DNA from: Ceratodon purpureus
Lineage: Eukaryota > Streptophyta > Bryopsida > Pseudoditrichales > Ditrichaceae
Reading direction: 5' to 3'
Assembly (NCBI GenBank): GCA_014871385.1
Contig: CM026426.1
Location: forward strand, 85,394,947-85,458,946
Length of the DNA stretch: 64,000 nucleotides
Shown here in pieces: positions 1 to 53,726 of the stretch (positions within the stretch are counted from its first letter, which is position 1; each line of letters starts with the position of its first letter). A program made the position numbers and the translations under genes. Below the pieces are notes generated by a model. That model did no database searches. It was not told where the DNA came from and saw only the letters and a program-made list of their open reading frames with translations.

Positions 1-1
1 T

Positions 2-1994: not shown

Positions 1995-4335
1995 AGACAA
2001 GAGGCGAGCCAAGTCCTCGTAATCGTGTTCAACCAGAATGAAGTGGAGAGAGCGACGAAAATGGCGAGTGATATTCTCGAAAGTGCAAAAATGCTCGCCA
2101 TAACTGTACCTACTATGGCTACTCTAACAATGAGGGAGAAATTGAAGAGGGTGCCAACCCCCAGGAAAAACGTGTGATTGACGTTTCCGACGATGAGGAG
2201 GGCTCTGCGGGTGAGGAGGATGTCGTCCAGGATGACGATTTGGAGGAGGGTGATGCAGCGCGGGTAGAGGAGGAAGAAGATTATCATGGGCGGGAAGAAG
2301 AGGATTAGCATGTTGAACGGCGGGAAGAAGAGGAGGGTGAGCAACTCTGTGGAGGAGGTGCTCGCAAGAAACTGTACGTGGGAGGATCTTCTAGTCGTCC
2401 AGGCGCCCACAGTCTCGGCGGACCTCAGAATGACGATGACGAAGAATAGCTTTATAAAAATATTGAAGTATGATGTAGTTCCTAACTTGTATAGTAGCAA
2501 TCAGATGTGGTGTTTGACACATGGTACAGAACTAACTATATCAATGTCACTATTGTTGAACGAACCATACAATGTGTCATTTTTCAACATTTTGTGTATT
2601 TATTTCCGTTACGGATCACTTTGCAGGTTAGCCCCCCCAACAACCCGCCATCTTCAGGTGTATGCTTTACAAAATCTGCTTTCACGCCGGAGTCCCCCCC
2701 TCCGAAGGCACTTTCCCGAAATGAACGGGGAATTTACTCTTCACTAGTCCAGATACCAGGGGGTACTAGTTCAAGTGCACAGAAAAGTTTCCATGGCGAT
2801 TCTGGCGCTCCTAGACAAGATGTTATATTGCCGTTAGCAGTAGACGCTGTCGTGTCTACACCTCCCTTCGGCATTACATCTTCTTTGCGAGGTCATCTTC
2901 CATCAACTGATCCGTCTCCAATGCAGATTGATACTGACTTATATACGTCTTCAAGTCATGCCCAAGGGTACGAAGGTGATTTGCAGCAGCAAAATGTCGC
3001 GGATACGCTGGCGGGGATGCAAGACGATCCATACGCTCTTCCTTCTCTCCCTAAGAACTTGGCAAAGGACAAAGAGGTAATTGCTAGTGTCTTCGAAGAA
3101 GCCCACGAAGCGGGGTTGCGGCCTTTCAGCCCTCCTGGAACGGAGACCTTGACAATTTCCCAGGATGTCCGGTCGGAGTCTGCCTCCCGGGATGTGTAGC
3201 CTGCAAATAAGAAAACTCTCCCTGAAGGTATTTCCCACCACTTTTCTTAGCGGAATCAGAGTAATCCTTTTCAGGCATATTCTCTAGACTCTAGGATCGT
3301 AGGATCCTACGATCCACAAGGGAAAATTGGATCCTTATTTCATCACGTTGCATATCATAGGATCCTATAATCTCTTAAAAGGATTGCAGGATCCTACGAT
3401 CATTTTTTGGTTTGTCGAAATGTGACATCCTCTTTCAGGATCGTAGGATCCTACGATCCATACGCTCGTCTCAGTGTTCTAACAGAAATGTTTTATTTTG
3501 ATCTCAAGGGTTAAAGTCTTTGACGTCTACGCAAAGCAAGAGGAATGTACCAGCTGTTCCAATGAAAAAGGGATCTGCATTGTGTAGAGAAGGTAATTCT
3601 CGCCAAACTATTTGATTTTACATGACTTGTGTTCTCCAAGGATGATTCTTATTATTGATTTGGCTGTCTTTTACAGGCAAACAAACTGCCCCCGCGAAGT
3701 CAACCGGGACTAGTGGCAAGAAGGTAAGGCAACCTCGGTACACTATTGTGGTGGACTTGAATGGTTTCTTTGTAAATCAAGGCGGCAGTATGGGTCAAGA
3801 AACCACAGTTAGGCCTGATGCGAGAAAGTTCTTGGAGCTGTTAGCAGAGAAGGCTAACGTCGTGGTATGGAGTTGTGCAATGAAAAAGAATGTGGATAGG
3901 ATTCTAGTGAAGGTTTTAGAAGGGTCAAAACTTAAGCCTGCGGTCCTAAAAGTGCTAACGCAGACCGAAGCTACCAAGTCTAGTTACCAAAACGAGGAAA
4001 ACCTAGACAAACAAATCATGCTTAAGGACCTTAAGATGGTCCAGGATAAGCTTGAGCATGTTGACCTAAGCCGAACATTGCTCATTGACGACAGCTGGTA
4101 CAAGAATCTTCTCAACAATTACCATGATGCAATCTATCCCATTACGTGGACGGGGCTGCCTTGGGACAAGTTCCTCATGTCCACTTTGCTACCTTGGCTC
4201 GAATCTATGTTCGATGCTGGCCAGATTGTCCAGAGATATGTCCGTAACAATTACCCTGAGCTCGGATTCAAGGACTATAGGAAGGACTTCAATGGTAAAC
4301 AGGCTAAGGAGATTCTGGTTGGATGTCAATTGTGA
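1995..4335 (+). CDS. FCP1/NIF-type HAD phosphatase-like gene 1 (multi-exon)
   Basis: The gene encodes a protein with a C-terminal FCP1 homology (NIF, HAD superfamily) domain, a fold that dephosphorylates Ser/Thr in the RNA polymerase II tail and other targets. My exon model is 1995-2467, 2627-3227, 3509-3592 and 3677-4335, with GT-AG introns at 2468-2626, 3228-3508 and 3593-3676 and phases that match at every junction. Exon 1 is very acidic (EEEED, SDDEE), exon 2 is Pro/Ser-rich, and exon 4 is the domain. In exon 4, VVDLNGFF replaces the DxDx(T/V) catalytic motif: the nucleophile Asp (3754-3756) is kept but the second Asp is Asn (3760-3762). VVWSCAMKKNV and LLIDDSWYKNL are the other conserved blocks. 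Exons 1-2 carry five in-frame stops (TGA at 2039 and 2069; TAG at 2306, 2447 and 3197), whereas the domain exons are open. It ends at TGA 4333-4335. It may be a live domain with decayed leader exons, a mis-modelled 5' end, or a young pseudogene. Confidence 0.6.
3295..3458. repeat. Palindrome cluster 2, inside an intron (four copies)
   Basis: Copies of the same 20-bp palindrome lie at 3295-3314 (perfect), 3354-3372 (diverged, paired arm changes), 3382-3401 (left arm diverged) and 3439-3458 (perfect). All four fall within the predicted 281-bp intron 3228-3508 of the phosphatase-like gene and make up about half of it. Confidence 0.95.
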
Positions 4336-4850
4336 GAGTCATCATCTTGGATAATCACCCCAAAAATTTAATATTATGGGCGTCGTGTATACTTTGTAAA
4401 GTTTTGTTTCATTCCTTTTAAGGACGCACATACTAATGAGGATATAGTTCTCATAGTGAAGGTGTAAATACCGGTGATCAAGGTGGGCTTCAGTTTTTGA
4501 AGCACTGAATTGTGAGCGATTCACTAGCTACTTCAATATTTTTATTGAGTTGCACACTCTGTAAAATTTCTTATCTACATAAACTTGTAGGATATACCTC
4601 AACGTTTAGAATCCAGGTGTAACAACATTCTATCCACAGGTTGTGTGAACACTATTTTGTTCACTTCAAGGAGAGTTCAAATTGTAATATGATTTGAGGA
4701 TCAGACCACAAACATTGAGGAGGGCTGTGTTATAACCCCCAATTTTACAGTAGTTCTGCGGTCAAGGAGAGTGATGCATAGGAGCTATGGTCGAGACGTG
4801 AATTAAGGACCTTCCGGATATGGATGAATCCAATTATCCACATCGTAGGA

Positions 4851-4945
4851 TCCAACGATGCCCATGGATAAATTAGGGCGCCAATTTTGGTTTCCATGCT
4901 TTTGCGATCATTGTTTTTATTTTCGGATTGTAGGATCCTACGATC
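4851..4945. repeat. Palindrome cluster 3 (two copies)
   Basis: Two diverged copies of the 20-bp palindrome lie at 4851-4870 (flanks changed to CATC...GATG, so still nearly self-complementary) and 4926-4945 (one mismatch). They sit just upstream of the second phosphatase-like domain. Confidence 0.9.
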
Positions 4946-4949
4946 CATT

Positions 4950-6025
4950 ATGTTGGTTATAATATCAAGCGGTGCTTTATGTCCACAACGACGAGACATT
5001 TCGAGGAAGGTTATAGTGCTATCTATTAACGGATTGCTTTATTTTGAGCAATATATCAAGTGCACCCCCCGTCGCTTCAACCCCAGAAACATTATGGCTC
5101 GTCCCGGTCTTCTAGAATTCATTACGTGCAAAAAGAGGTCAAGAAAAGGCCGTGTAAGCGGCACGTGAGAGAAAAAAACAGGCGCTGCCCGCGTACTTTT
5201 TGACATGGCATGTGATGTGCCACCGTGGTGCCAGCAACCGCCACGGGGGCTCGAACCAATGACCTCCGAGCGAGGCGTGTGGAGGGCACAATCTACGGTG
5301 CCGGGTTGACACCATCTGCCCACTTGGAACCAAACCCCGAGACAAGTCATTCATGTCTCAAGAATTATTCCTCGGAGGAATGTTCACAGTGCGCCACGCA
5401 GTACTGTGCGGGCAGCAACTCTGGCACCCGCTGCCTGCGACAGTGCGGGGGGCAGCAGGGGGTTCACCTAGAAAAGGCAGGCTTACACGGCCTTTTCATG
5501 ACCCCATTTTGCACGTAATGCTTCAGGATACTTCTCAACAACTTCGAAGTTGGAATATGGTCCTCCATGGCCCCTGCAAGACTAAGTAAGGTTATTCGAT
5601 ATCTCCTACCCGATAAGATCAGATTGAGGTTGCTCTTCTGTTATGGAAAAAACAAGTGTTCCAGGCCGCATTTGTATCCTTTTTGTGACAAGGAGCTATC
5701 CAGAATCGTAACGGACGAGAAATCGAAGCACTTTTGTCGTCCAGACAAAATTTTGATGGTTGATGACCAGCCAATGAGGCATGTTTTCAATGGAGACCTG
5801 GCATGCTACTTTTCAACTCCGTGGAGTGGTGAAATGACGTTATCCAACGCAGCAAACGTAATTCCTGACGTAGCAATAGCGTTGCTTCCGTTCATTTTGC
5901 CGCTAAAGTATTCCGCCTCGATAAAGGAGTACCTGCGTAGAAATCAGAAGGACGGAAAGTTTAAGCGTAGACTGATTGAGAGGTGGCACATTGAAAGAGG
6001 GCTACGTAGTGATGGTGGATCGTAG
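4950..6025 (+). pseudogene. FCP1/NIF-type HAD phosphatase-like gene 2, interrupted
   Basis: This is a second FCP1-type domain directly downstream of the first. The N-terminal part reads KVIVLSINGLLY and RPGLLEF; the catalytic DxD positions are Ser (5022-5024) and Asn (5028-5030), so the nucleophile is missing. A 401-bp inverted-repeat element (5120-5520) follows, after which the same domain continues in frame with LLNNFEVGIWSS, then KILMVDDQPMRHV and ALLPFILPL, the typical closing blocks. Deleting the 401 bp joins the halves with no frame change. The frame ends at a TAG (6023-6025) that belongs to a palindrome copy at 6018-6036. Without the nucleophile it is probably not an active phosphatase. 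It could be a pseudoenzyme if the 401 bp is removed from RNA, otherwise a pseudogene. Confidence 0.6.
5120..5520. mobile_element. 401-bp inverted-repeat element, copy 1
   Basis: This is a non-autonomous DNA element of exactly 401 bp. The first and last ~40 bp are inverted repeats (outer bases CATTACGTGCAAAA; inner GGCCGTGTAAGC), with only a few mismatches. The interior is GC-rich and includes CACGGGGGCTCGAACC, the reverse complement of a tRNA T-arm/B-box-like motif. No target-site duplication is visible. A second copy of identical length is at 37973-38373. It has no coding capacity of its own. Confidence 0.85.
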
Positions 6026-6829: not shown

Positions 6830-9800
6830 ATGGCTCTCTCTGATGTCACAAACACATGTAGTTCGTATATTCCGCAGATTAAATTGCCAAGCAAGTGTGC
6901 ACCACTAATCCGGAGAGGAAAGTCACTGGATACCCACGCGTCGAGAAGTAGTTTTCCACTGAGGAGAGCACGGGGTGAGAGTAATATCGATCTGTGGGTG
7001 GATGGACGCATATGGCCTATCGATCCTAGAACTGAGGAACCCCCGTCTTTCAGGATCACAAAAGATTATTTAGAGTTCCTCTGTGAAGGTGAGAATGGGA
7101 TGCTTGGTTATACAAAACGCTTGAAAACAGGGGGTAGTGTACAGGAATTGGAGTCACGAGTCTTGACGTTGCAGGGTCTGGTCGCGGAGTATGAGGGACA
7201 GATTCAACATCTTCGGAATTTATGCATGCGGCTTGAATCCGAGGCCAGCATCACGTTGGATGCAGCAGCCTAAGATGGGATTGATCGAAGAAACCTTTGC
7301 TTGGACGTGGAAAGGCTCAAAAGCAAGATGTGAGAAGCTTAGTGGAAATCTAGCCCGCAGCGAGCACCGCACCCATGCGAATGATGTGGATCATCGTGAG
7401 AAAGTTGAGTCTATGGATACTGAGCTGCAGAGATGCAAACTGGAGTACCATAAGTTAGAGGAGAAGCTCCGTTCCATGGTTCGAACTCCCCGTGGATTCC
7501 GCCAGAGGGTGCACGGGAAATCGATGAAGAGCTTGGCTGATCTTGCAGGCGGTAGCGGCCATGCCAAGCGACAGAGGGCCCTTATGAGAGCCATGCTCCA
7601 GCCGGCAGTCGTGGCGGCGATTCGGAGCACTAACAAGGTCGCCGGTGGTAAGAAGAGACTGGCCGGTGATTCTACGACGCAAGCAAAGACGGCGGCATGC
7701 TTGGCCAGTATCCTCAGGCCAGCTGAAGCGGCGGCAATGGTGGAGCAGCAGAGGATGTCCCCAGCAAAGGCAAGTGTAGTAAAGGATGTTATTAGGCAGA
7801 TCGGGGATAGCATAGGTTCTGATAGCATGTTGGATGCATGCGACAGCGCTGGAGTGACGGTGAGAGGTTACGATGCGATATACAGGACGGTGAAGAATCG
7901 CATTGGAATGGTAGCACCAGGTATAAAATCTGGTATTTTGCCGGCGCCACATCGACTAGGGTCGTTGAGAAAAGAAATGAACTTGAAGCTCCCACAGTTC
8001 ATTGGGGACTATTACCATATTGACGAACGCTGCACAATCCCAGAAGTGCGGGTGGGAGGAAAGGTGGTCACAGCAGCAAAGGAGGTTGTTCTGGATAGCA
8101 AAAACAGTCTGTTCGTTGAGTTGGAAGTTGTGCAACGGTCGATGGTTATGTTCTACGAAATGACGACGGAAGGTAACTTTCCATTTGTGTGCATAATTGG
8201 ACTTAGTCAAACGTAAGCGCTTATGTTATGATTGTAGTGTACTAGATTCAAGGTGAGTTGTGACCAAGGTGTATAATATGTTCATGCTGTGCAGAGTGCA
8301 ATGGCGGTCCACTGATCTTCGTGCTGAAGCTTGATGAAGAAGAGGTTCTACAGGGGAAGAAATTCGAGAGAGTGAGTCTGACCTTGATGAATCGAGCCTT
8401 AGATCCTAGCATCCAGAAAGACCATGAGAGATACTTCTCTGTACAATCCGAACAAGAGATATGGCCCATAGGATGTTTCCAAGTAGGGAAAGAGTCTTAT
8501 GATGTGCTGAAGTGGGCATTTGAGAAGACTAGGTTCTCTGAGTTGATTGCAGCACATATGGCCGGCCAACAACTTGTGGTGGAGGGAGTTGGCAGTTTTA
8601 ATGTGGAGTGGCACCTAGCCGCTGATATGAAAACGATTAAGTGCATGTATGGGCTTCAGCACGGTCCCACATGCAAGATGACGTGCATCTATTGTGAGCA
8701 GATCCATGAGGTATCAAAATCTTGGAGCAGCGCAGTAGCAGTAAGGGAATTCAGGCTACAGGGCAAGGATAACTGGCAAGGGGGGCTTTTTGCTTCGAGG
8801 ATCCCACCGAAGCCCGTCAATATTGAGACGCACCCACGGTGGAAGCCTATTCTGCCCATTCCGCTGTCTCACACTCATATATGTACCCTCCATGCCCAGG
8901 TTCGTATTATTGAGAAAATCTTGCACCTTCATTTCATGTTCATCTGGAACATGGAAGATCCGAGGAGGAGAGCAGAGGCTATGGATTCCATTGAGAAGAC
9001 TTTGTCAGCGATAGGGGTGGAGGGGGGCAACTGCCAGCTGAAGCAGGATAAGAAGAGGTCCGGAAAGAATGCAAATGTTGTCATGAAGCTTGGTTTGAGT
9101 GGAAAGGTGGCTGCGAGGTTGTTCCGTCAAAGCACATGGTCCACGTATGACAAGGTGTGGAAAGAAGTGTGCATGTCAGAATTCAACAACCTCGAAGGGG
9201 GGCAAGGTCGACAAAATCGATGGCGGGTTTGGGAGGCACTGGAGGATTTACAGCCGTATCTCACAGGACTTGTGCTGACGCAGGGACAGCGTGACTCTTG
9301 TAGGGCAAAGATGGATGCTTTTGGGAAGGCCTTCCTTGCAGCATTTGGAGAAACGCACGTTACCCACTATATCGTAAGGGACGGTTCTATATGCTGATCA
9401 ACATGTGCTTTGGTGTCTTCAATATAGGAAGCTGCAATGGAATTACGATGGTACCTGAGGCTCTGTTCACTACTTAGCTAGGCATGGCATGGCGCTAACT
9501 CCTAAATTCTTATATTTCTGTGTGCAGCACGTACTCGTGAAGCATGGGCCATGGTTCGTTGAAATCTACGGCAGTTTGTCAGTCTGGTCCTGTCAAGGTA
9601 TGGAAAAGTCGCATCATGCAGCAAAAGCAGCAACGCAAGGTCACACACAACATGGAGGGACAGCTGCTCGCACTAGCGTGATTGTTCAACAATACCAATG
9701 GTGGTACCGCTGCATTCAGCATCGGTATACCAGGAAGGAAGAGAGGAGATTGGAAGAATCCCAGGCTATTCCAGTGGATCCAAGCGCCATAGCTGCGGCC

Positions 9801-10088
9801 GCAAGAGGTCGGCATGCTTGGTGGGCCTCGGGAGCTGCTGAAGCTTCGGGAGTGTGGCGTCAAAGTCGTCATAGAGATGGGAATCGCTGGGTGGCTCCAA
9901 ATAGTGGTTCTACAGAGTTGGCTCACACTCATCCAGATAGTGCAGGCATCGATGAAATTCCTTGTGGAATAAGCAGTGGGGCAGTGGAGACGCGCGGAAC
10001 CCAGCCTGTCCGTGAAGAGGATTACCAGGCGACAACTGATACAGATCAGTGGGAGAATGAACATGTCACCGACATAACAGAGTTGTAG
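6830..10088 (+). pseudogene. Multi-exon transposon-like protein gene (family not named)
   Basis: The first frame runs from ATG 6830 to a TAA at 7271-7273 and ends in a coiled coil (VQELESRVLTLQGLVAEYEG). The coil continues in another frame (CEKLSGNLARSEH), so a frameshift lies near 7320. From there the model is exon to 8172, intron 8173-8294, exon 8295-9373, intron 9374-9527, exon 9528-10088, with matching phases. The middle contains a Lys-rich basic region, IGDYYHIDERC, a Cys cluster (CKMTCIYCEQIH) and LHAQVRIIEKILHLH. The end has HVLVKHGPWFVEIYGSLSVW, then SCQGMEKSHHAAK. This order (Cys cluster, LH...R block, H-x-P/G-W/F block, QGxEK block) resembles multi-copy proteins of transposons in many eukaryotes; I recall the pattern but cannot name the superfamily. 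It stops at TAG 10086-10088. The 5' part is broken; the last three exons are open. Confidence 0.55.
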
Positions 10089-10877: not shown

Positions 10878-12080
10878 CCCCTAAGTGCCCAAGAAAGCCG
10901 AAATGGCTTTATGCTGTTTTGGGCAACCTAGATGAAGACGTTAAAAGTAATATTTTTTCCTAAATTTTTTACCAGCTACACCCTTTACCGCAATGTGTAC
11001 GTGGAAAAATTTTCGAAGTCAAATTCCAATTTTAAAACCTCTAAGTAGAAATTTTGGGTTTCAAGTCCAAAACAGGCAGTCTAAAATTAGGTCATTTTTA
11101 TAAAAAAAAATTGAAATATGTTCATAACCAAATCACTACTCGAAAACCATAGTGACCCAAGTCAAAAAGTTTACCAATTTTAGAAGGACAGCCTCCAAAA
11201 AGTACATGAAGAAGCTTCAAATTTTTTTGTAAAATTACATTTTCTCCTCTCCAAAAATTGTCAAAATTTGAGATTTAGGATTTTTTTCAGATATACGTGA
11301 CGTCATGCATGTTTTACTATATCAAGGTTTTTAGATGTGCTTCTAGAAAACAATTTTTATGAGAGCCAAAAAAAAGGAATGAGTCTCTCAAATTTTCCAT
11401 AGGGGTGCTCAACTCAATTAGACTTTGGATTATATACTTCTGGAAAGAACCTTGGATACTCAGTTGCTTAATTTAGTTTCAGAATTATACGAGACTATAC
11501 TAATGGTTGAACATAATTCTAAGTATTGAAAAAATGGTGATAGTAAAATCTTCATATACAGTAAAAGAACACCTTAGTGAAAATATCTTCTAAAAGAAGA
11601 AAAAATAAAAAAATAAAAATTTGGCACATTCAACTGCGCATCGGAAAGCGTGGTGGGGTGGGTGTCGGAGGGTGGATTCGAACTCGGCACCAGCACCCTG
11701 GGGCCGCCACGTCAGTTCGAACCCGAAGCCTCGGAACACCAAGCCACCAAGGCTTTGACGAGGTATGTAAAATTTCTAAGCATACTTATATCAAATCTGA
11801 GATCCTCAAAATTAAAAAAATTAAAAAATTAAATTCATTGCACATCGGAAAGCATGGTGGGGTGGGTGTCGGAGGGTGGATTCGAACCCCGCACCAGCAC
11901 CCTGGGGCCGCCACTTCAATTCGACTCTGAGGCCTCGAAACATCAAGCCAGCAAGGCTTTAACGGATGAGTGTATGTTCTGAGCATAGTTATATCGAATC
12001 TGAGATTCTAAAAATTGAAAAAAAAATAAAAATGAAAAATTCTTAATCGCTTTAACTGGACGCCAAATAAGGCAAGGGAG
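10878..12080 (+). mobile_element. Repeat R1 (TTAA-flanked, non-autonomous)
   Basis: This copy is bounded by TTAA on both sides (10874-10877 and 12081-12084). It starts with CCCCTAAGTGCCC and ends with GGCAAGGGAG. TTAA flanks with C-rich termini suggest a piggyBac-like non-autonomous element, which is inference only. It is related to R3 (minus strand) along most of its length and to R2 and R4 from about 11290 on. The GC-rich module containing ATTCGAAC and GTTCGAACCC boxes occurs twice in tandem (about 11640-11780 and 11846-11990), a duplication the other copies lack. Confidence 0.75.
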
Positions 12081-12969: not shown

Positions 12970-14634
12970 TCAACGTTGTGCAGAAGGAGGATCTCCAGGT
13001 GACCACTCGAACAGTTTGTGTGTATCTGAAGAACATGATACTGGAGTCTGGGCCAAGGCTTCCTCGCTGGGCAATGCATTGCCTTCCTTTGACAGTAAGA
13101 AGTCATGACATTCTGAATTCAGGTTCAGGGCCGTATGCATGGTGACTGCAGCACCATTCCGCGCTCCCACAACATTTCTAAGATTCTGCATTGTGTCTTC
13201 GACCCACGCCTCCTGCTGGTCGTCAAGTTTGTCGTCGAATTGAGCTATCCACGCTGGGTCGAGGTCGCCACACATGGGGCATTGATAGAGGTTAGAGTCA
13301 ATCAGTTGTGCCACACAGACATTGTGGAAGAGGCATCCGCAAGAACCGAGTATTGCTGCATTGGAGACAAAACCTTTGTTGCAGATTGAGCAGATATGAG
13401 TCATACGGTATACTAACGCAGGTACGGAGTATGCGCTCGGGTACACAAAAACGGAGCGTGGGCGCAGGATCAAATACTCCTGTTCACTCTTGAGCAGGCT
13501 CGCCTCCGCGGCAGCGACGTCAGCAAGGGCTTGATTGTGAGCGGCAGTGGCATCTTGAAGGGGACCCGATTTGAGCTCTAAAATTCGAGATCGCGCAATC
13601 ATCTGCTACTCTTGCATCGACGAGAGCCTCGCTGAAAGAAGCCGCGCCATTTCCGCGTGAACCTTGTATTCTGTTGCTGTCCACTCCCGGAACAAACGCG
13701 AGAGCTCCGTGTTTGCCGCATTGCATTCCAACTCCAGCCGACTATACTCTGCATCTGTAAAGGCATTCACAATGCCCAATGCCGAGTCGTGATCCCGCTA
13801 AAGCGTTTCCAACGCTGTCTGTGCTAGAGTTGCGGTTGCTCTGGCAGCCACTACTTCTCTGAGTGCACGATCTGCACTTCGTGTCATTATCTGGCGCTCT
13901 GGTGTGCCAGATGCCACTGAAGCCATCAGCTCGCAGAGACCTTCCACCTGCCGGCGCAACGCCACTGGTCCCAGCTTCTTCGGGTTCTTCAATGCGGTTG
14001 CGAAGCGCTTGCTTCGGCACACCGTGGCCTCCGCCACCCAGTTCACGTCCAAGCCATGCACAAATGTTGCATAAGCAGCCTTGAGAAAACGCATGGCAAA
14101 GTAGGCATTGTCAGGACAGTTGCCATACACACGGTAGCTGTGCTGCGAGAAAAGCTGAGCCTGCTCCTTGTCCAAGCAATTTGCAATCTCAAATCGATTC
14201 AACTGCGAACCCGGGCGCCATACCTTCTTGATGTCGGACTCCAGAATATGTGGGTAAACCTTGGAAACATCATCTACTGTCGGGCCCTTGTCACACAACC
14301 CCACCCTGTCATGGAAAAACATGTTGTCGTATTCTGCATTGTGGCCCAGCAACATCGGTGCAGCTGCCACCATTCGTTCACGCAGCGCCAATGGGATTGC
14401 TTCAAGGTCGAATGCTGCATCAAACTCGGAGTTCCCCACCTCAAACGCAGGAGGGACTTCGACTGACTCGACATCTGGGCCCTCTGGAGTCGTTTCTCTA
14501 TCTCCGCTGGTGGACTGTGGGAGTTCCTTCTGGACAGACTTACATGACTTGCGAGGTTGCGGACTTCTATGACCTTCGGTGGCTTCGGACCTTCGTTTCT
14601 TGTGCTTCTTCTCTGACCCCTTCCCGTTTCCCAT
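12970..14634 (-). pseudogene. RING-like gene A (two in-frame TAG codons)
   Basis: A single frame runs from ATG 14634 to TGA 12970 (555 codons) with no indel, broken only by TAG at 13800-13798 and 13608-13606. The order is: basic Ser/Lys-rich start (KKHKKRRSEA), acidic linker, a conserved block of about 150 residues (APMLLGHNAEYDNMFF ... FVHGLDVNWVAEA), a long Ala/Glu/Arg coiled coil, then a zinc-binding RING-like domain at about 13392-13270 (CSIC ... CGCLFHNVC ... CPMC). Its ligand pattern is C-x2-C / C-x-C-x2-H-x2-C / C-x2-C. Such domains usually confer ubiquitin-ligase activity; here that is only inferred. Both TAG codons fall in the coiled coil, where Gln fits (ETL-x-RDHD, MQE-x-QMIA). Gene C is the closer relative in this window and gene B the more distant one. 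It could be a functional gene decoded by readthrough, or a recently decayed one. Confidence 0.6.
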
Positions 14635-16100: not shown

Positions 16101-16323
16101 ATTCACATCACAGAGAACTACTCTTGACCTTCAAATAGTGTGCACATAAGTAAAACTAAATGAATTTTTATTTTATTTCTAATTAAAATTTGTTTTTGAA
16201 AAAAATCTTGGGAAAAGCAAGGTAAGGTGAAAAACAAATATCTTTAATTGTTGAAATTTAAAAGAAATGGCAAGATGAAGGTATCAATAAGGAGATGGAT
16301 GATCAATGGAGGGATGAAAAATA

Positions 16324-18175: not shown

Positions 18176-20125
18176 ATGAGCCGCACGATGAGCCGGAAGG
18201 AGAAGGCCGCTGGCAAGCGACGTGCTATTCCTGAGTCATCGTCTGATACCGACGACGAAGTTTTCCAACGGTTGCAGCGGCCATCGCGGCCAACGAAGGC
18301 CGTGGAGGATATTCACTCCAATCACCTCACCATCTGGCGGGAGCCTTTTGATCTTCGGAAGCTTCCGCAGACTATGACTCTTGAGTTGTTGAAGCGGGCA
18401 CCCTTCCTCTTGGGAGCTGAGAATGCAAAATACAACAAGCACTTTTTTGAGAAAGTCGGTGGTCTCTGTGCTGAAGGGGTTCCATTCGAAAATTTGATGA
18501 AGGACGAGCATGGTGTGCCACTTGATGATTTGCTTGCTACGTATCCTCTTAACAAGCATGGAAACCGTCACTCCTTGCGATTGATGACAGATCGTGACGC
18601 AGCAAGAGACGCTTTGCACATGTACCAGAGAGTGTATGGTGGAACGCATCCTGACAATGGCGAATTTGGCACAGCTTTCATTCAAGGTCTTGTCCTATTC
18701 TATCAACGACAGACGCAAGTGGACTGGGCTGATTATGCAGCAGACTTGGCGAAGAAGCGGGTGCAGAATCCGATTGTCAATCCACAGAAACTCACGCCGC
18801 CATGTTTGAGGGAGCAGATTCAAGCTATGATAAACTTGTTCCAGCATTATCTTCGGACCGCTTATGCAGAACGGGAGGATGCGACATCACAGTTGAGGCG
18901 CGCGAATTTGCCATTCAGGCCATCCGATTTTCCGGCAAGGCAGCAAGGGTCTGCGGATCCCACGGAAAGTAGTCCTCCTGCACGGAAAGAGGTGCGTGCA
19001 GAGGCAACGAGAGCAATCCTCCAAGGTTCGCCCGGTGGTAGCAAGGCGGTGCGGCAGCAGCGATCCAGCGCTCCACGGACATCTCCACTATGTTCCATTG
19101 TGGAAGCGGTTGCAAGTGCGCCTTCGCCGAACGCAAGACCGGACCAGCTCCAGGCACTAAAAGAGAAGAGACGGAAGACAGAGAAAAAGCTATTCACCGT
19201 GATCAAGCACCTGGCGGATGCAGAAAAGGAACTTGAACTTTTGGGCGCCAAGAAGACAGAACTTTCTATTTCGGAGGATTCCAACTGGGAGGTCATGGTG
19301 TCGTTACGAGCCAGTAAGAAGCATTGCGCGCCGCTATCAGAGGAGAGTTCTCAACTGGAGGAAGATATGCGAGCAAAGACAGCAATCGCTAACACCATCT
19401 CAGAGTCCATCGCTAATGTTCAAAAATAGATTGCGGAGCTGCAAGATCGCATTCAGCTTCTACGGCGAACCACAAAGGAGCTGCAAGACGAGGTGGGGGT
19501 CATCACCGCAGACATCGATGTGGTCATCGTCGACAGCAGCAGCATTCGTCCGAAGCAACTCCTGGCACGCCTCCCTATAGCATGCATGAAGTTGGTAAAA
19601 GTAGAACCAGCTGTTCCATGTGTTCTCTGCGGTCGATTTTGGGTGGACAATGCTTTTGTTTCTCTTCCGTGTGGATGCTTGCTGCATCATTTTTGCATGT
19701 TCAAAGTAGTCCTGTTGAAGGATCCGCGTTGTCTATTTTGCAGTCATGCACTTGGTGGGCTATGAAGAGGCCAGTGGGGATTCAGTACCGACGACGACGA
19801 CATGCGTAGCGCAATCTCTGCTTGCAGAACCGGCATGGACGAAGCGGGTTGGTTGAAGCCTCTGGATGCAGTAAGTGCGCGCGTGAAGGTGGAGGACGCG
19901 CTGAATTCTTTGATCCAAGAAGAGACTCAGAAACTTGCTGTGGGGAAACGTCTCCCTGAAGTGGACAGTTTATGCTTTGAGGAGCCTCTCCCCAAACGTG
20001 CACATCCGGACTCAACATGCGAGCCAGAACTGGATCCGGTCTCCACAGCAGAGCGTGAAGAAATACGTGCAATCGGAGCTGAAGCAACACTAGAGGCTGA
20101 GAGCTTGCTACAGCAGGGAATCTAG
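18176..20125 (+). pseudogene. RING-like gene B (in-frame TAG and TGA)
   Basis: One frame runs from ATG 18176 to TAG 20123-20125 without indels, interrupted by TAG 19427-19429 and TGA 19763-19765. The layout matches gene A: basic N-terminus, conserved block (APFLLGAENAKYNKHFF ... PDNGEFGTAF), a Ser/Pro-rich linker, a long coiled coil (ALKEKRRKTEKKLF, LQDRIQLLRRTTKELQ) and a RING-like domain at about 19618-19745 (CVLC ... CGCLLHHFC ... CLFC). The TAG falls inside the coiled coil where Gln fits (NVQK-x-IAELQ). The TGA aligns with a Trp of genes A and C (DPAW), so it may be a decayed TGG, and the tail after it stays open and acidic. If the TGA is a real stop the protein ends just after the RING. 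It is more divergent from A and C than they are from each other. Confidence 0.6.
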
Positions 20126-21590: not shown

Positions 21591-21595
21591 TTTAA

Positions 21596-25446: not shown

Positions 25447-26940
25447 TCACTCAACATTTCGGCCCCCGTGGTGGTACGCAGCCCCGAGGCGCCTAACCAT
25501 CTCCACCGTAACTCCCACCTGCCGATCCTGGTCAGCATTCAACTTCCCATCCCATTGTTTGACCCACGCTGGATCGAGCTTGCACTCGCAGTAGGGGCAA
25601 CGGTAATGGCTCGACTCGATCATCTCTGCCACGCATACGTGGTGGAAGAAGCAACGACAAGAACCAAGAATTGCTGCACAAGACACAAACCCTTTAGAAC
25701 ACACGGGGCACCACTCGTTCAGTGAGCCCATCCCTCCATCAATCGCCGGTACAGATTGTCGTGGAGGATATTCAAAAACCGCTCGCGACCGCAAGATCAG
25801 GGTCTCCTGTTTGGCCTTCTTGAGAGCTGCCTTGGCTTCAACACGCACAGCTATGGCCTTCTTCTAATCCGGGACGGCCATGGACAGTGGACCGTTTTCC
25901 TCGGCAAGACTTCGCATGGCAAATCTTGCGGTCATCAACTCCTCCTGCAGCTTGGCCACCTTCTCAAAACTTGCCCGCACCACTTCAACCTGGGCCTTGT
26001 ATTCGGAAGGTGTCCGAGTGAGGAAAACTCTTCTCTGCTCCACCAAGGCCGCGTTACTCTCGGATTCAGCCTTCGCCACGTCCTCCTCCGTGCACCTCTC
26101 CAGCACCGCCACCGCCAAGTCCCTCTCCTTCTGAAGTCCTCGCAGTACCTCCGCCGCGGCATCCGCAGCTGCTGTAGCCGCAGTCAACGCCCCCTCTGCT
26201 GCAGTCACCGACTCTGGTGAACCAGGAGTCAACGGTTGTCCACGGGCGAGATCCTTGATGATACCGCATAAGCTTTCAACTTGACACTAGAGAGCAACTG
26301 GACCAAGCTTGTATTGATTCTTCATCGCGGTTGCTATACGTCTGCATCGACGCCCTTGTGCTTCAGCCACCCAATTCACCTCCAAGCCATGCACAAACGT
26401 CGCGGTAGCGGCCTTCAAGAACCGCATTGCAAAATAAGCATTATCCGGGCGATGTCCATAAACTTCATAACAAAGCTTGGAAAACTGCCGAGCCTGGATC
26501 TTGCTGGTGCAGTTGACAAGCTCGTACCGATTCTGCTGCATCCCCGGCCTCCAGATCTCCTTGATGTCACCCTCCAACACTTGCGGGTAGACCTTCCCCA
26601 CATCATCTACCAGAGCACCCCGATCGCACAAGCCCACATGGTTGGTGAAGAACTCATCCTTGTACTCTGCCTCACGGCCCGCAAGAGCAGGAGCTACTAC
26701 AACCATGGAAGACTGCAACCCTAGTGGAATACCACGAAGCTAGAATGGTGCATCCCACTCTGAGTTACCAATCTCATATGCAAGCTCCACTTCGGTCAAA
26801 TCACCTTCACCTTGCAAGGAATGTGACCCGGATCCTTCCCCTTCCTCGCTATAATCGATGGATGATCGACGCCTCCCACCTCGAGCACTGTTTGGAGTGT
26901 TGCCGCCCCTAGACACCTTCCGCTTCCTCTGAAACACCAT
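25447..26940 (-). pseudogene. RING-like gene C (three in-frame TAG codons)
   Basis: One frame runs from ATG 26940 to TGA 25447 (498 codons), with no indel but TAG at 26742-26740, 26289-26287 and 25866-25864. The order is as in gene A: basic start (MVFQRKRKVSRGG), acidic linker, conserved block (APALAGREAEYKDEFF ... FVHGLEVNWVAEA), an Ala/Glu-rich coiled coil, then a RING-like domain at about 25710-25588 (CPVC ... CRCFFHHVC ... CPYC) and a short tail (DPAWVKQWDGKL). Each TAG can be read as CAG to TAG: APF-x-LRGIPL, GPVAL-x-CQVE and VPD-x-KKAIAV. The conserved block is highly similar to A, for example PDNAYFAMRFLKAA in both. Ligase activity is an inference from the RING fold only. Confidence 0.6.
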
Positions 26941-33779: not shown

Positions 33780-34808
33780 AAATATGTATTTTTGGTGGAT
33801 TTTATGATTGGGATGTATCCTGTGTTTTGAATGAACTTTAGATTGTCAACGTAATATAAATTTTGGATGAAGTCTAAGGTTTGGATGAGTTTTGGATTTT
33901 GGGTAAATTTGGGATTTTGAATGAAAATAGTATTTTGGATAAAACTGAATTGGCAAAGAGTTGAAAGTGTGAACACCCAACCAAAAAGAGGGATGTTGCG
34001 TTTCTGTTGCTTTCTCTTTTTGACATGAGAAAAAAACAACTACTTTGATTGGCATTGGCTTGATTTTTAGGTAACTAGCATTACAATCGTCCTCTAGAAA
34101 GTAACTGAAGGTCAAACGATGCTTCTCATTAAAGTACGGGATCTTCAGACTTAAAACTTGCAAGCTTGTTAGTTTCCCCTTGTTGGGCAACTCTGCAAGA
34201 TTAGAGCAGTCAAAAGCACGAAGCTCTTCCAAAGCAACCAAATAATCCAAACCAGGCAGGGCCTTCATCAACGGAAATTCAGAAATGGCCAACTTCTTGA
34301 GTTTCTGCAGCTTTTGTGAATTGGGAAGTTCTTCAATGTTAGTACATCTGTCAACACAAAGCTGCAGCAAAGACACCAGATCGCCAAACCCGGGTACTGC
34401 TTCGATTGTTGAGCACTCAAAAATGTTCAATCCCTACAGCTTTAGGAGCTTCCGTAAGTTTGGAAATTGTCCTCGTTTGACATAACCCCAAGCATCAAGC
34501 TTTGGCAAAACCCCAAGAGTATGCAATCCAAGCAATGCTCTTATGGAGACACAAAACAATATGTCCAATTTCTGGGGTCTCTGCAGCTTTTGCGAATTGG
34601 GTAACCCTTCAAGATTAAAGCACTTCGCCGCTTCCATCCTCGTCAGATATTTTGAATAGTTTGTAGTAGAGTGCTTTTCTGAGTTTTGAATATGTAGATT
34701 TGTTGAAAATACTGTCATTTTCTGTCCAACGAAGAAAAAACGCTGATCTAGCACTTTAGATGTATAGGTGTTACTTCTTCTCACCCTAACCAACACCTTT
34801 TTCCACAA
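33780..34808 (-). pseudogene. Leucine-rich-repeat fragment of an NBS-LRR-type gene
   Basis: The frame 34808 to about 33846 encodes plant-type LRRs, for example LEELPNSQKLQKLKKLAISE-like units (IEELPNSQKLQKLKK, ALEELRAFDCSNLAELPN). These LRRs form the ligand- or effector-sensing part of intracellular immune receptors. A TAG at 34436-34434 interrupts an otherwise continuous frame between LRKLLKL and GLNIFE, where Gln would suit. No NB-ARC or TIR motif (P-loop, GLPL, MHD) is present nearby, so this is a 3' piece only. The 3' end changes to FIQN/FTQN-like AT-rich repeats (33770-33960). Confidence 0.7.
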
Positions 34809-34809
34809 A

Positions 34810-36430
34810 TTAAGTTGTCGGGCCTCCCAAAGGTTTTATGGAAAGGAAGAAGTGGAGAGTATTTTCCGAGTATTGGAAGTTTACAAGATTAGTTGCAATG
34901 TAGTATAAATGGAGATGAGAACAATTGTGAGAGAAGGTACACTCAACTCTTCTTGTCACAGTGTCAAAGTATTTACTACTACTCTCTAATTGCATATTAG
35001 AGTCCATTGCCATTCTACTGTAAGTCATACATAAGGCCCTATTCATATCATTTGTCACAGACTTGTTGTGGGAAATAACATGACTACCTACTATTTGTAA
35101 TTGTTTATGACAATCACATCTATAGAACCCAAAACATTTACTAAACATCCAGTATTCAATCTGCAGCAGTTCTAACTTATGAGAACTAACTCAGCTGAGT
35201 TGGTGTTGACAGGGGGAGTTTCGGCAAGCCTCTCTTCACTAGTCCTACTGCACACACGGAAGGATTGACGTGAGATTGTGTAACAAGGAGTTTGAGTTTA
35301 GAAAACTTACCTTGGCTATTGAGAGAAGCGGGCCAGTCGTTGCAATGTCTCTGACTTGAAGGCTTCCTGCGGTGCCAGGTCCTATGGCTGCGATTCTCTG
35401 AGGTACATTGCATTGGCAAGTCAGACTCCAGGGGTTGGCTCCAAAGTCGCTGCTTGGTGTGCTGGCCTTCTTGCGTACATTCTTGGTGTGCTCGTCTTGA
35501 TGTGGTACAGACCGTCTTGTGCTCGTATGTTGATTTCGGTGGGGACCTCCGCGTCGTTGTCGGGGTGTGTTGTAGCGACAGGAGGTTTGTCGAAGCAGGT
35601 GATGCTGGTGGTGGTCTTTGGTAGCTTCGTTTCGAACAGTGTCTGCTTGATACTGGCTGAAGCGTCGCATAGGGTATCAGAGAGCTGCTTGCCGGGTCCT
35701 GGTTTGGTGTCGTCCACCTTGATGTGCACTGTGATTCGGTTCACAAATGCTCATGGTGCGTAAAAGCACCGGTGTCGAAGTTGGCTTTGGTGTGGGCTCC
35801 GAGGGTCAGCAGCTAAACAGCTAATTGGTGGTGAGTCCGTTGGTTCTTGACTGATTCGATGTGCCTTGTACAAGTAGGCCGAGGTCACGCAGTTCCCTCC
35901 CTTGGTGTTCTTGTGCAGGCAAGATCCAGAAATTTCGGTTCTCTGTACTTCCGAGTCGTGTGTTGCTTGGGCTTCTTCCGGTCTTGTTGAGTCGGTGGAG
36001 ACTACAAACGGTGATGAAGGAGAGAATGGATCACATGAGTTAAGACGTGGCGTTTCACGATTCAGTTTAATAGGGCTAGTGTGGGTCTGTGGAACAGCTA
36101 GGAAAGTATATGCATGGCATGAAAAGAGCGGAGCTAAGATGATAATGAAAACAAAAGTGAGTAATCTGAGAGGTCGGAAGAACTCCCCTTCGTATGTGTG
36201 CTCAATCTTGAAGTTGATGTGCTCCCAGGCCGAGGTAGCTCATGTATTTGTGCAAGTGAGTATCCTCGAGGAAGAAGTTTGTCCCCACGACAACGCCAGA
36301 TCTAGATCTGAGAATGGATATTACTATTGTGTGATGCTGGTCTAGTCCCAACCACTGCCCCCAGCTCTAATCAGTCAAGCAGTACTAGTTTCCAGCAATC
36401 ACTAGTGAATACACACGCACATGAATCAGA
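34810..36430. other. Stretch without an assignable gene
   Basis: Between 35245 and 35763 both strands are open in several frames and GC is raised. A minus frame includes ITVHIKVDDTKPGPGKQ and a plus frame MKASCGARSYGCDSL. I cannot decide between them and recognise no family. A GT donor-like site follows the minus frame near 35310. Confidence 0.3.
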
Positions 36431-45544: not shown

Positions 45545-48500
45545 TTAGATCCCACTTTCTTGAGTGTTTATAAGAAGGGCTGAAATTGTCAAATAGTTAA
45601 GCACTTTTTTGGTACACTTTATTGTGCTTGCCCCCACAATGAGTAGGACATTCACTGACACAGTGTCGACGTTAACTCGGATATGTTGAACCGAGATGGG
45701 TCGATTATGAAACATTCCCGTCCCTCCTAGACCAAAGATCTGCCCTATGCCTACGGTGATGTTCGCATATGTCTTGTCGGCAAGACGAACCCAGTCTCCA
45801 ACTAGCAATTTCTGTTTCAAAGAAATTTAGTAAGAATAAGTCAGCAGTCGCAGATTTATATGAACAAAATATCTATACTAGTGATAATATAAACAGTGGA
45901 AAACCTTTTGTAAGTCTCATGTTTAGTCATGATTTCTCTGGGAATCAGAAAAGTTGTTTCTCAAGCAGTACTATCGTAATATCATGCGGATAGGATACCG
46001 TGAAATCTAATATAGTTTGCTTAGTCAACTCCACTACCGAAATAAGATCTCGAAATACATATATTGCAGGAACGGATTTGAGTAATAGCTAGCCGCTGGA
46101 ATTTTTTTTTGCCACCAAATACTATGTGGATCTCCTCCATGTCCTGTTCCATTCACGCAACAGTACTTAGTTAACTTGTTATAGACGTATAATTTTTCAT
46201 CTTACTGAAAGCTACCTCAAGCTTTCAGTAAACCCACATAGACACTACTTTAAGAGGATAAGTACTTATTGAGTTTCCCGAGTGATTCATTCTGCGAGCG
46301 GCATATATGACGAGCTCTAAAAAAATAAATAAAATAACTTCCAGTACATCATGATCATGTCACAAAAAAAGGTATTACTCATCATCAACAAAGTATGAAC
46401 ATATCTGCCAGCACATCAATGCCCACACAGTATGCAAGGGAAGACCAACCGACAGTATTACCATTCAGTTTAAATGAATGACAAATAAGTTTCGATATGA
46501 GTATACAATATGGAGTACTGTTTGGCGACAACATTGATTGAACTCTCCAACCACTGAAGCGTACAAGAATTCGAAGAAATAGTTTCCAAATGAGGAGTAC
46601 AATACGCATCATGCATACGACGACATACCTTATTCATATCCGAGACCTTAAGGTTTCTGTTGGGTCCTTCTCCCATTTCATGCTCTCTCATCTGCAAGAG
46701 TACAATTATCGCATCAGCGAATGAAAATGTGTAGTTATTATCATCGTCTACGTGGAGTTGATTTCAAGGTTTACTGCGAGAGAAATAATGATTTTCAGAA
46801 AGCATCCTTCGTTGCCCAATGTATATAAATCACAGTATGTCCTTAACAAAGATACTAATCATACTTAACCAAAATTGATCGATACATTTTTAAGCAATAT
46901 TCATGCCAAACCTTGAACATCTAGAATCGAAGTGAACGTGGATCCTTGACATCGTTTACCCTGTTTAATAATTAGCTCTTTATAGTACGATGCATTTTGA
47001 ACGTTCAAACATGAGATGTTTCTGTTTCACTCGAATTTATCAAATGCAAAAAAGAACTAAAAGACAAAAGGAAATGTAGGTTGTGATGCATTATACTGAT
47101 AAGATAGTTATTTACGACACACCTTCTGTTCTGCGACGACGTCGTCAGATGACTGGTCCAGTTGGTCCCACCAGACCTCACTACTTCTGGGATGACGACC
47201 CGAAGTATCCCCTGCAGCCTCCGTTTCTTTCTTCGTAGATATAGTTTCCCCTACCAAAGGAGTACCTGCAGTCTGGGAATTCACACACCAAGATCCACAA
47301 GCAGGGCTAACGGTCGTCATGAATTCCTTCGGCATGGACTGCATGTCATCCAGTCTTCGATTAGTCTCTGCTTGTTGACGCTCCATTGCCGACAGTTTGG
47401 ATGAATACTTTCTTTGCATATCCTGAGACTCAATTACATTAGTAAACTACGGAGTGTCCATAGTATGATCAAACAGATGTGCATAAAGCAATGAACATGT
47501 ACATATCACTATTAATAACGAAATGACTTTATATATCATTTACATGTTTAAAAAATTCCAACTACTGCAGTTTTACATGCATAAATGCGACACATCGTCA
47601 ACTGAGCAATACTTTCACAGCCGTGACATTCTCTTAAGACTAATCATGAATGAACCCCATCTTCTATTACAGAATCGAACAGAATTTGCATTGCTAAATT
47701 TTAAATTAAAACTAGCAGAATAAAAGATAACACGAGTGCATTCATGATTCAGGAAAAATACTCACGCTGCTCTCCGGATTATCTTGAGCACTGTTGATTT
47801 CTTTCGCCAAATCTACCCAACCAGGTGGTGTCTCCCGCTCGGTCTTCTGCATTATCAAGAATATAAAGATATTTCATGGACTTTACATTCTAAAACGTGA
47901 AGAAAACTTAGACTCATGTCTGATGTGGGTGCACTAACAGAGTAAAACATAAATTGTAAAACAATCTTATCAATTGTTCATTCTTGCCTGCATACCTGTT
48001 TCTTCCGACCCTTGGATTGTAACTCACTTTTTTTCGTGTCTCGCTCATTTTCTCCGATTTCTTGATCATGGCCTCAAAGTTCTAGTACTTCTTCATGGCC
48101 TCCCACTCCTTATCAGTGAGTTTAGTTGGTGTTTTCGGATCACTGCCATGTACTCTCTTCAATCTCTTCCTATCTTTGCTTAGCCAAGTTTTAATCATCT
48201 TATCAAAAGAAGACTGCGTCACCTTGTTCTCTAAGAACTCGAACTTCTTAGTTACAGCTTCCTAGAGCTTACCCCGTGAATCCTCACTTTGTTCCTCATA
48301 AACCATGACACTGCGATCTAGCAATCTAGGAGTTAGGTCTCTTACATATTCCTGCCATTTAAGATGCCCCGCACATCCGCTGTCAATTAGTCCTGATGGT
48401 CTGACTTGGACAGAATAAGGCTTCAAACCAGATGCTACTCTTCTCATTGATTCCTCTTCTGCAAGCCGCTTGTTATCTCTCCGTAGCTTTCTTTTCTTGG

Positions 48501-50075
48501 AGTCGTCCTTCACAGTTGAAGCTTTGTTGGCTGAGGCAGTCATGTCGACGTTTACATCCGCATTCGGTAACTGAGACACGTTAGAAATAACCTGGTTGGG
48601 AACAAATTGCCACTGACCTGCTAAATTTGACAGTTGCAGTGGAGACGGCGTCGATGGACCAACACTTTGGGAAGCTCCATGAGGCAATTGGACCCACGAC
48701 CAAGAGGGTCCCGACTGAATAGCAGGAGAAATTCCTGGAGGAAGGACGCTAGGGTTAGCAGGTACATGCAATGTAGGTCCTGGATGACATTGACTTCCCT
48801 GTCTACCTGAGAAACGCTGTTGAAGACCATGTTGTTTCCTTCCTTCTTGCCCTCGTTTTGTAGTTTGTCCCTTCTTGTATAATTTCTTCTGTTTTTTGCG
48901 CGGAGTACCACTACTGGTCTCTGAACCTCTGGTTGGGGTTTCCTTTCCATCATTATATGCATATCTTAAATGTATTAGTTCCGGGAAAATAGAGTGTGAA
49001 AACTTATAATACACAAGGATAAGCATGAAATAGAACATGTAATCAGTATCAACGAGCATAACGCATAAGTACGACCTGTACTGAACAGCGCAGAATATTT
49101 CAGTTTCATCTGAATCGATAAGATACATTCACATATACTATTCCAACATCTTCGTACACAGTCTACCAGTAAAAGCAAATTATTACCACTTATTTAATTG
49201 TCTAGCTAACTTTCTGTCAGTGCTTGTATAATTTGAAAACCCAAACAGAAATCACTGTAACAAACATCATGGTAATGGTCAATGGTGTGACGACAAATAC
49301 AAGGAAAACTAGGTCCAGATAAGACGATTCACTGCAACCCATACAAAGTTCTATCTAAAAATAGAATCTATTTGATAAACTTATACGGCATTAAAAGTTA
49401 AACCCTACTGTGAATAACGTCAACATCGGACGATGTAAATTCGAGCTAATTCCTTTTAACATCAACGCACACACTTCAAGAACATACCTGAAATAGAATA
49501 CTCTGACTCCTCTTCTCTTTCGGATTTATCTTCATCATTCGTTTCACTTCCATTACCAGCGACACAACGACGGACATCATGTTGCCGAATTCTTCCACTG
49601 CGGCGAGATGTCTCGCGACCCCCAACACTGGACTCCTTTTGTCGCCGTTTTTTCGTCTTCGCAATGGCTTCATTCCTACAAGTACAACCAACGAACCCCC
49701 AATCTAAATAAAATAGTCGACTTCTGAACGGTTACAAACAACAGGAAGAACAGGCTCCAACAACGAAGAAGACAAAGAACAAGAATTGGAGAAGGGAGTC
49801 GCCCATAACAACACCCTCAAAGCAATCGTGACCGTCAGTACATACACGTAGCATCGATCCTACGATTATAGATGACATTGTTAGGGTTTAATGAAACATG
49901 GACGGCCTTACAACTCATTTGCTGCATCCAACACAGGTTGCATACGAGCCTGGAGAAGGGCAATGTTCACATTTCTCTGGCGTTCGTACTCGTTTTCTGA
50001 TGGTGAGTCTTCCTCTGCTCCTAAACTCGCCATCACTTCATCCTCTACATCTTTCCGACTTCTCTTTCGCGACAT
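45545..50075 (-). pseudogene. Transposase_24-like gene of CACTA-1 (in-frame TAG codons)
   Basis: This is a multi-exon protein of the plant Ptta/En/Spm family, thought to bind element ends or assist TNP2. Exon 1 is 50075-49912 (MSRKRSRKDVEDEV), intron 49911-49676, exon 2 49675-49498 (NEAIAKTKKRRQKE, basic/acidic). A large exon from about 48965 carries a basic Gly/Gln/Pro-rich region, LKWQEYVRDLTPRLLDRSV and then, after TAG 48264-48262, EAVTKKFEFLENKV, SSFDKMIKTWLSK and EWEAMKKY. After a second TAG at 48084-48082 it continues KSEKMSETRKKVSYN. Later fragments are ERETPPGWVDLAKEI (about 47850), MERQQAETNRRLDDM (about 47380) and the C-terminal LLVGDWVRLADKTYAN ... FHNRPISVQHIRVN (45820-45545). Both TAG codons are in frame with intact flanks and fit CAG-to-TAG. 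It is probably non-functional, unlike the copy in CACTA-2. Confidence 0.65.
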
Positions 50076-51990: not shown

Positions 51991-51999
51991 CAACATTAT

Positions 52000-53726
52000 C
52001 CACTTCGTATGAAAGTCTGTTCAATTGCTAACACCGGCTCAAATTACAGAAAATGGACTCGAAATTGTCTACATGAGATGTTACAAGAATTACAGCACGG
52101 GACAATAAGTTGTGGCTGCGTGACCAATGTCGTGCAACACTCTACAACTTCCGTTGAATTCCCTGTCCATGCTCGATTCATAAGGGGACGAAGTCGGACG
52201 ACACCTGATACGATATGGAAGGAGTCCGGAGTGTAGGACTTGGAGGGGGCCTGATGATCCTGACGCATCTGATGAAGAGTGGAAAGAAGAATATTTCAGC
52301 AGTTTAAAACATCATGAAAACACCACACAGGAGAGAGAGAGAGTGGGATCGAAACGAGGGGCATGATACGTGACATGTACCAACAGGTGGCTCCCAATAC
52401 AGAGACGGAGGAGAGGATTGATAATATAACTCGGGATGCTTTGGAAACATCGGACAACATTACAAGTATGAACGACATGGGTGAGGGAGGGTCCAACAAT
52501 GACAACACCTGCAACTCGAGTGTGCGTGAAGAGCACAACCCAAATCCGAATGCAGTAACCACTGAAGGTGAGCAACGGCAAGAAAGGGAAACAGATATTC
52601 CAGAAGGTGATTCAAACCAGAACAATGCACCGCATGCAAGGTTCCCTGATGTAGACCAGCGCGCAATAGAAGAGGAGAGGATGAAGGACGCAAAAGCTCT
52701 TGAGGACGCTATGGGCCTATTCTATTCGGGTTCAAAACATTCAAAACTAGGTGCTACCATCATGATGGTCAACCTCGTCGCAACACATCCAGGTATGACC
52801 GAAAAAGCTGTTGACGATGTTTTAGCAACCATGAAATGTTTAGTGCCATCGGATAATTGTCTGCCCTCTTCCTTGTATCATACAAAGACCCTGACAAAGA
52901 GGTTGGGATTAGACTTTAAGAATATAGATGGGTGTCCCACCGGTTGCGTATTATTTGATCAAGATACTACGAAGGAGTTGGATCGTTGCCCAGTTTGCGG
53001 TGCAAACAGATTCAAGGACATGTTCAACAAAACCCGACCTCTTAAAGTTCTTCGGCAGTTGAGGATTACCCCTCGGCTTCAGAGATTCTATCGTATTCCT
53101 GTGCTTGTCAAGTTACTCCGATGGTACAGTGAGAATTAGAGCCAGGATGGGAAGGTCCGTTATCCTGGCGATTCTAAAGCTTGGAAGAAGCTTGATAACA
53201 TGGATCCCAATGTTTTTGAAACAAAAGGATTCGGTTCATCAGTGCAAGATGTGAGACTACAAGTATCCTATGACGGGATTTGCCCATTTAAGTTGCATAA
53301 GTCAACTTGGTCAGCGTGGCCAGTTTTAGTGAGTTTCTTAAACCTACCTCCCTGGCTTATCACAAAGAAATTTTTCACAATTCTGACATTGCTGATACCT
53401 GGGAGATCTCAAGTGCCCTTTGAGTATTTCGATGTTTGAATCAGGCCCTTAGTAGACGAATTGAAAGAACTATGGGAAGGAGTTCCATCGTTTGATGTAT
53501 TGGCACCGGAACAGAATCATCTCTTCAACCTCAGAGCGGCGGTGTTGTGGACAACACACGACTTCCCAGGATATGGAACTGTGTCAGGAGCCTCTCACCA
53601 AGGGTATGCGGCCTGTCCTCCATGCGGGGATCAGTTAAGGGGCAAATACGCTTATGAGAGTAAGAAATTGACATATCGTGATGCAAGACGTTGACTGAGG
53701 CCAGACCACATCCTCCGATCAACCGA
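52000..53726 (+). pseudogene. TNP2 transposase of CACTA-1, truncated
   Basis: TNP2 is the DDE-type enzyme that moves CACTA elements. The N-terminal stretch (52000-52360) is frame-broken. From 52363 to 53726 a single frame is kept: the typical FYSGSKHSKLGATIMMVNL block, LPSSLYHTKTLTKRLGL, the zinc-like CPVCGANRF, and the start of the catalytic region (LNLPPWLITKKFF; PLVDELKELWEG; FDVLAPEQNHLFNLRAAVLW; DFPGYGTVSGASHQGYAACP). Stops within this frame are TAG 53137-53139, TGA 53437-53439 and TGA 53692-53694. No indel is seen. CACTA-2 begins right after HILRSTD, so the rest of the enzyme is displaced beyond the window. Confidence 0.85.

Follow-up and report, generated by a model that had tools for sequence, protein, structure and literature searches.

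TAG-interrupted reading frames in a repeat-rich region of Ceratodon purpureus: probably decayed gene duplicates and mobile elements

In a 64,000-nucleotide stretch of the Ceratodon purpureus genome (GenBank assembly GCA_014871385.1, contig CM026426.1, positions 85,394,947 to 85,458,946 of the forward strand; hereafter the window), the long reading frames of three related genes, A, B and C, and of several transposon-like elements are interrupted by stop codons, many of them TAG. The question that this locus raises is whether these frames are decaying copies or whether UAG is translated here. We consider it probable that the TAG stops arose as duplicated genes and mobile elements decayed in the ordinary way under an unchanged genetic code, TAG being the nonsense codon that single-base changes create most often; the use of UAG as a sense codon is disfavoured. 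The argument is built on the positions of the stops, the paralogy of the three genes, the substitutions between neighbouring repeats and the shares of stop types expected from them.

Genes A, B and C and the stop codons of the window

Gene A (12970..14634, minus strand) spans 554 codons from ATG to TGA, contains TAG at 13798 and 13606, and encodes a coiled-coil-like stretch followed by a RING-like C-terminus. Its paralogues are gene B (18188..19765, plus strand; 525 codons) with one in-frame TAG at 19427, and gene C (25447..26940, minus strand; 497 codons) with TAGs at 26740, 26287 and 25864; both end in TGA. Identity is 44% between A and C and 25% between A and B. The absence of indels described in an earlier note on this DNA holds for the family, as each gene is a single frame from its ATG, with two, one and three TAGs, respectively, and no internal TGA or TAA. 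Three further TAGs lie in the frame of A upstream of the ATG used here. The three genes are homologous on both sides of their in-frame stops; all begin with a basic N-terminus and share a conserved block in the N-terminal part and what we read as the coiled-coil-like stretch. Searched against proteins of known structure, a profile of the family gives weak matches to RING fingers at the C-terminal end (best E 0.004; 37 sequences up to E 1, most of them RING proteins), and the Pfam RING matches are also weak (zf-rbx1, E 0.0099 in C; zf-ANAPC11 in one member). When the six-frame translation of the window was searched with a family profile, with stops written as X, nothing beyond A, B and C was found below E 0.4, so that a further recognisable copy with other stop types was not missed in the window. 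Relatives of the three genes were found neither among viral contigs (viral_contigs) nor among prokaryote genomes (genome_contigs).

All 14 positions cited in the earlier note read TAG on the strand of the respective gene when the codons were checked in the sequence, and the TAA cited at 7271 is also present. The accompanying claim that in-frame stops are almost all TAG fails for isolated stops in general, and TAG predominates in the longest frames only. We defined an isolated stop as one flanked on each side by 50 or more sense codons, counted in six frames and without selection by stop type, and obtained 65 of them: 25 TAG, 24 TGA and 16 TAA. TAG is enriched in this set relative to all stops in six frames (1622 TAG, 2475 TGA and 2290 TAA; binomial p 0.014), and where the open stretches before and after the stop together reach 250 codons the count is 10 TAG, 3 TGA and 1 TAA (p 0.0004). 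Many isolated stops are antisense to genes. Nine of the ten long-frame TAGs were already in the earlier list, and because six of the ten sit in A, B and C they are not independent. The apparent near-exclusivity of TAG is due in part to the choice of frames. Reading TAG alone as sense extends the frames of A, B and C to 667, 569 and 543 codons, respectively, but frames found in this way are by definition delimited by TGA or TAA, and finding neither codon inside them therefore proves nothing on its own.

Other stops break the mobile elements of the window as well. A Tc1-like transposase copy (1..1030, ends approximate, plus strand; Pfam DDE_3), which occupies more than one frame, carries TGA at 191 and TAA at 959 in addition to TAG at 778, and the transposase TNP2-1 (Transposase_21; 52318..53740, end approximate, plus strand) carries TAG at 53137 and TGA at 53437 in one frame. 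We take TGA 191, TAA 959 and TGA 53437 to lie inside these genes from our own reading and from the usual patterns of these families. A codon-usage model discriminated poorly and was not relied on. With both flanks scoring above 0.1 (and a maximum of nine further stops allowed there) it returned 53 TAG, 87 TGA and 25 TAA, which is not a TAG-only set, and with the best frame only it returned 6 TAG, 5 TGA and 1 TAA.

Some of the listed TAGs very likely stand outside coding frames altogether, in introns, at frame ends or in purine-rich sequence that is open by chance, a reading that is compatible with decay. The TAG at 3197 is followed by an apparent intron, with the next exon in a different frame, and the surroundings of the TAGs at 2306 and 2447 are acidic and purine-rich, without homology support. 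This explanation leaves the six TAGs inside the homology of A, B and C unaffected.

Expected stop types and the codons that face each TAG

Copies of one repeat of up to about 930 bp flank genes A, B and C, and provided a substitution spectrum: r16 (16320-17260, plus strand), r11 (11240-11835, plus strand), r22 (21540-22320, minus strand) and r28 (27652-28600, minus strand), which are 79-97% identical in local alignments. Part of this repeat looks tRNA-like (TTCGAACCC) and, by our own reading, it is perhaps a short interspersed element (SINE). Summed over the pairs r16-r28 and r11-r22, C/T transitions per site number 11/76 at CG, 11/67 at CHG and 33/390 at CHH, so that CG and CHG sites change at about twofold the rate of CHH sites; the other four pairs give 0.06-0.24, 0.14-0.24 and 0.10-0.12, respectively. 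Using transversion and C/T rates from the repeat pairs and an assumed weight of 0.06 for A/G transitions, we calculated that 54% of nonsense changes in A, B and C would be TAG, 27% TGA and 19% TAA. The TAG share rises to 61% under an assumed tenfold CG/CHG bias, and to 69% if CHG is assumed to be raised tenfold and CG fivefold. The largest single route to nonsense is CAG to TAG (29-49%). Under these expected shares, the 10 TAGs among the 14 long-frame stops are unremarkable (P 0.16-0.56).

The frames would be what is left of a duplicated gene family and of transposons that are decaying in a repeat-rich eukaryotic region. The standard code would make TAG a more frequent product than TGA or TAA among single-base changes to such coding sequence, mainly through CAG, which is common and has its C in a CHG context; TGG, GAG and AAG would offer further routes, and the CG/CHG bias would, judging by the repeats, add a modest push. 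TAG would then be most visible in frames lost too recently for frameshifts to have accumulated. That the copies are untranslated, and the mutational route at each single TAG, we infer. Ordinary pseudogenes and decayed transposons carry stops within homologous frames. The window resembles them in its homologous frames with stops, in the mixed stop types and frame changes of some elements and in the surrounding repeats; the A-C family, which is TAG-only and without frameshift, differs from them. The other elements look dead, the Tc1-like copy by its TGA, TAG, TAA and frame change and TNP2-1 by its TAG and TGA. Among the titles listed by a literature search, none dealt with a bias towards TAG in decaying genes of plants.

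The earlier note had proposed, as one option, methylation-driven decay of silenced repeats. Decay is the better supported part of that proposal; its strong form, in which deamination at methylated CHG and CG sites is the main cause of the TAGs, is possible but doubtful; being a variant of the decay reading, it overlaps with it in likelihood. The raised CG and CHG transitions point towards it, as do the dinucleotide ratios of the window (observed/expected 0.74 for CpG, 1.15 for TG and 1.17 for CA) and one TAG column, A392, which is compatible with a change from CAG. The bias is only about twofold, however, and TAG would be modal anyway. In the youngest repeat pair CHG is not raised (1/35 versus 12/240 at CHH) and transversions equal C/T transitions (16 and 16), and the paralogue codon is not CAG in six of the seven TAG columns. 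Methylation may have contributed to the TAGs, but a driving role is not supported by the repeat spectrum.

These columns also bear on the claim that Gln fits at nearly every TAG, which did not survive comparison with the paralogues. In the alignment of A, B and C, which was repeated with X at the stops, the A392 column has CAG in C, the A456 column GAG in C, the C113 column GAC in A and GAT in B, the C264 column CGC in A and AGG in B, and the C405 column CAC in A; the TAG of B (19427) has no reliable partner codon. Two further columns come from Transposase_24-1, a Transposase_24-like frame (47914..49128, minus strand) with TAGs at 48262 and 48082 and no Pfam match of its own, where a weakly similar second copy has TTC and GAG. 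The seven columns thus read D, R, Q, E, H, F and E, with no residue in common among these few, diverged sequences, and CAG faces a TAG in one of the seven. TAG 778 of the Tc1-like copy aligns with a Trp of Sleeping Beauty, the single match in a PDB search. As the paralogues are distant, the columns weaken the Gln claim without disproving an origin from CAG. Two candidate matches were rejected: a TAG common to A (13606) and B (19427), which share a column when TAG is aligned as Gln but in only one of 14 alignment runs with X, and a CAG of B in the A392 column, which was lost in two three-sequence realignments while the CAG of C was kept.

Decay weighed against a translated UAG

Several observations weigh against decay. 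Eight Cys/His positions near the C-terminus are conserved and intact in A, B and C. CAG is found in a paralogue at only one of the five A-C columns, and C113 and C264 require two changes from the paralogue codons to reach TAG. That all six stops of the family are TAG has a probability of 0.026, 0.054 or 0.11 under the 54%, 61% and 69% spectra, respectively. TAG takes up a similar part of the Gln-type codons in A-C and in the leucine-rich repeat (LRR), Transposase_24-1 and TNP2-1 frames (6/77 and 4/56), as a low-usage sense codon would. Differences between A and C beyond the last TAG number 52, 40 and 84 at codon positions 1, 2 and 3 (134 codons), and over the 150 codons of the conserved block that precedes this TAG they number 45, 34 and 85; in three other segments the pattern is weak (32, 38, 37; 30, 26, 36; 39, 38, 51). 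The excess at position 3 past the last TAG suggests that the C-terminus was probably under selection, and translated, over much of its history. This pattern would fit recent stops and, equally, translation through the stops, the latter counting with the points above.

The lack of frameshifts belongs with these points. Frameshifts build up alongside stops in old pseudogenes, although they are not strictly required of young ones. The six A-C stops imply approximately 110-150 neutral substitutions under these spectra, over which the absence of any frameshift has a probability of 0.008-0.025 at one indel per 20 substitutions and of 5e-6 to 1e-4 at one per 8. The higher rate is inflated by A runs: both internal indels of the youngest repeat pair lie in A runs, while r11-r22 has nine, several of them elsewhere. 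Frame changes are present in the Tc1-like copy and absent in A-C. Since the P values were computed after the family had been chosen, we rate the absence as mildly surprising, and it remains unexplained under decay.

The second option of the earlier note was a UAG read through or decoded as Gln. In its general form, which we consider unlikely, UAG would be a sense codon (Gln or Glu) that makes up a few per cent of the codons for Gln, and UGA and UAA would remain stops. Genes A, B and C have TAG as their sole in-frame stop type, no frameshift and TGA at their ends. TAG makes up 7.8% of the Gln-type codons in A-C and 7.1% in the LRR, Transposase_24-1 and TNP2-1 frames, the latter frames having been found by reading TAG as sense, and BLOSUM62 sums over the five A-C columns place Glu first (9) and Gln second (8). 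These shares stand, whereas the fit to Gln on which the proposal was based is not borne out by the paralogue columns or by the Trp of the Tc1 column. TGA and TAA interrupt frames here too, and a multi-exon gene or element described below, x, seems to terminate in TAG at 10086, although it has no relative that would prove its end. Five frames, picked as being open, contain 76 Gln codons and not a single TAG (P 0.002, Fisher 0.03); if TAG 10086 is counted as sense, the share becomes 1/77 (P 0.015, Fisher 0.12). Outside this test were the RNase H frame of a long interspersed nuclear element (LINE), which has 21 Gln codons and lacks TAG, and the LRR, Transposase_24-1 and TNP2-1 frames (4 TAG, 52 Gln codons). 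Also outside it were frames at 32215, 31315 and 30175, with 30 Gln codons and without internal TAG; TAG bounds two of these frames. A search of the 64-kb window with ARAGORN under bacterial settings found no tRNA gene.

Known codes offer a comparison. Iotanema spirale is reported to use UAG for Gln, at approximately 8% of Gln codons, with 204 in-frame UAGs in 126 genes, none of them a terminator, and with ends that are mostly UAA (104) and in 15 cases UGA (PMC5304391). The window is similar to what is described there in having TAG as the sole in-frame stop of some genes and in the 7.8% share in A-C; it differs in its count of ten TAGs over six frames, in the TGA ends of A-C and in one apparent TAG terminator. 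In the ulvophycean green algal code, both TAA and TAG are reported as Gln (PMC2984419). TAG would be Gln here also, but A-C contain no in-frame TAA. That this genome, or at least the coiled-coil, RING-like A-C family, translates UAG (into Gln or Glu) stays conceivable because the family is TAG-only and free of frameshifts, and we hold it to be improbable.

Least probable is that A, B and C are live and that the TAG before the RING-like domain is a regulated readthrough switch: in each gene a TAG does separate the N-terminal block from the conserved RING-like end, but the TAGs stand at differing positions (the match of A and B being the one seen in a single alignment run), C has an additional stop inside the N-terminal block, and CARYYA, a readthrough context motif, follows none of the six TAGs.

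Remaining frames of the window and what the stops mean

Transposase_24-1 has weak similarity (E 1e-8, composition correction off) to a second Transposase_24-like frame, Transposase_24-2 (55109..56701, minus strand), which ends in TGA and contains 18 Gln codons and no TAG; its Pfam match (E 2e-4) is under the family cut-off. The earlier note had described this element as intact over 720 codons. Its longest stop-free frame is 530 codons, and 720 codons in one frame were not found. The LRR fragment (R13L1/DRL21 type; 33846..34835, minus strand) carries its TAG at 34434. An exon of an FCP1-like phosphatase (NIF; 3646..4335, plus strand) has no TAG and ends in TGA, and is followed by a second, fragmentary NIF-like frame at 5519-6025 (Pfam E 8e-4, below cut-off); the likeness between the two is weak. 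The unnamed multi-exon gene or element x (7167..10088, plus strand) has its apparent TAG end at 10086-10088 and an upstream frame with TAA 7271 and a frame change; it has no Pfam match above cut-off. A search of viral contigs (viral_contigs) found no relatives of its last exon, of the Tc1-like copy or of TNP2.

A LINE-like frame holds, at 33363-33386 (minus strand), the motif DIESNPRP, which is close to the 2A peptide signature, upstream of an apparent APE endonuclease in shifted frames; a Pfam scan of the LINE-like and APE frames gave no match. A 404-bp repeat occurs at 5120-5523 and again (80% identical) at 37973-38376, where it extends over the end of the RNase H frame (36954-38021). Tandem repeat copies, partly overlapping and of 76-83% identity, occupy 58466-58776.

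If decay is the correct explanation, TAG-rich open frames of this kind would follow from the codon table and a mild CG/CHG bias, and no new code would be needed. A translated UAG, were it real, would be a stop-codon reassignment of the kind reported from protists.

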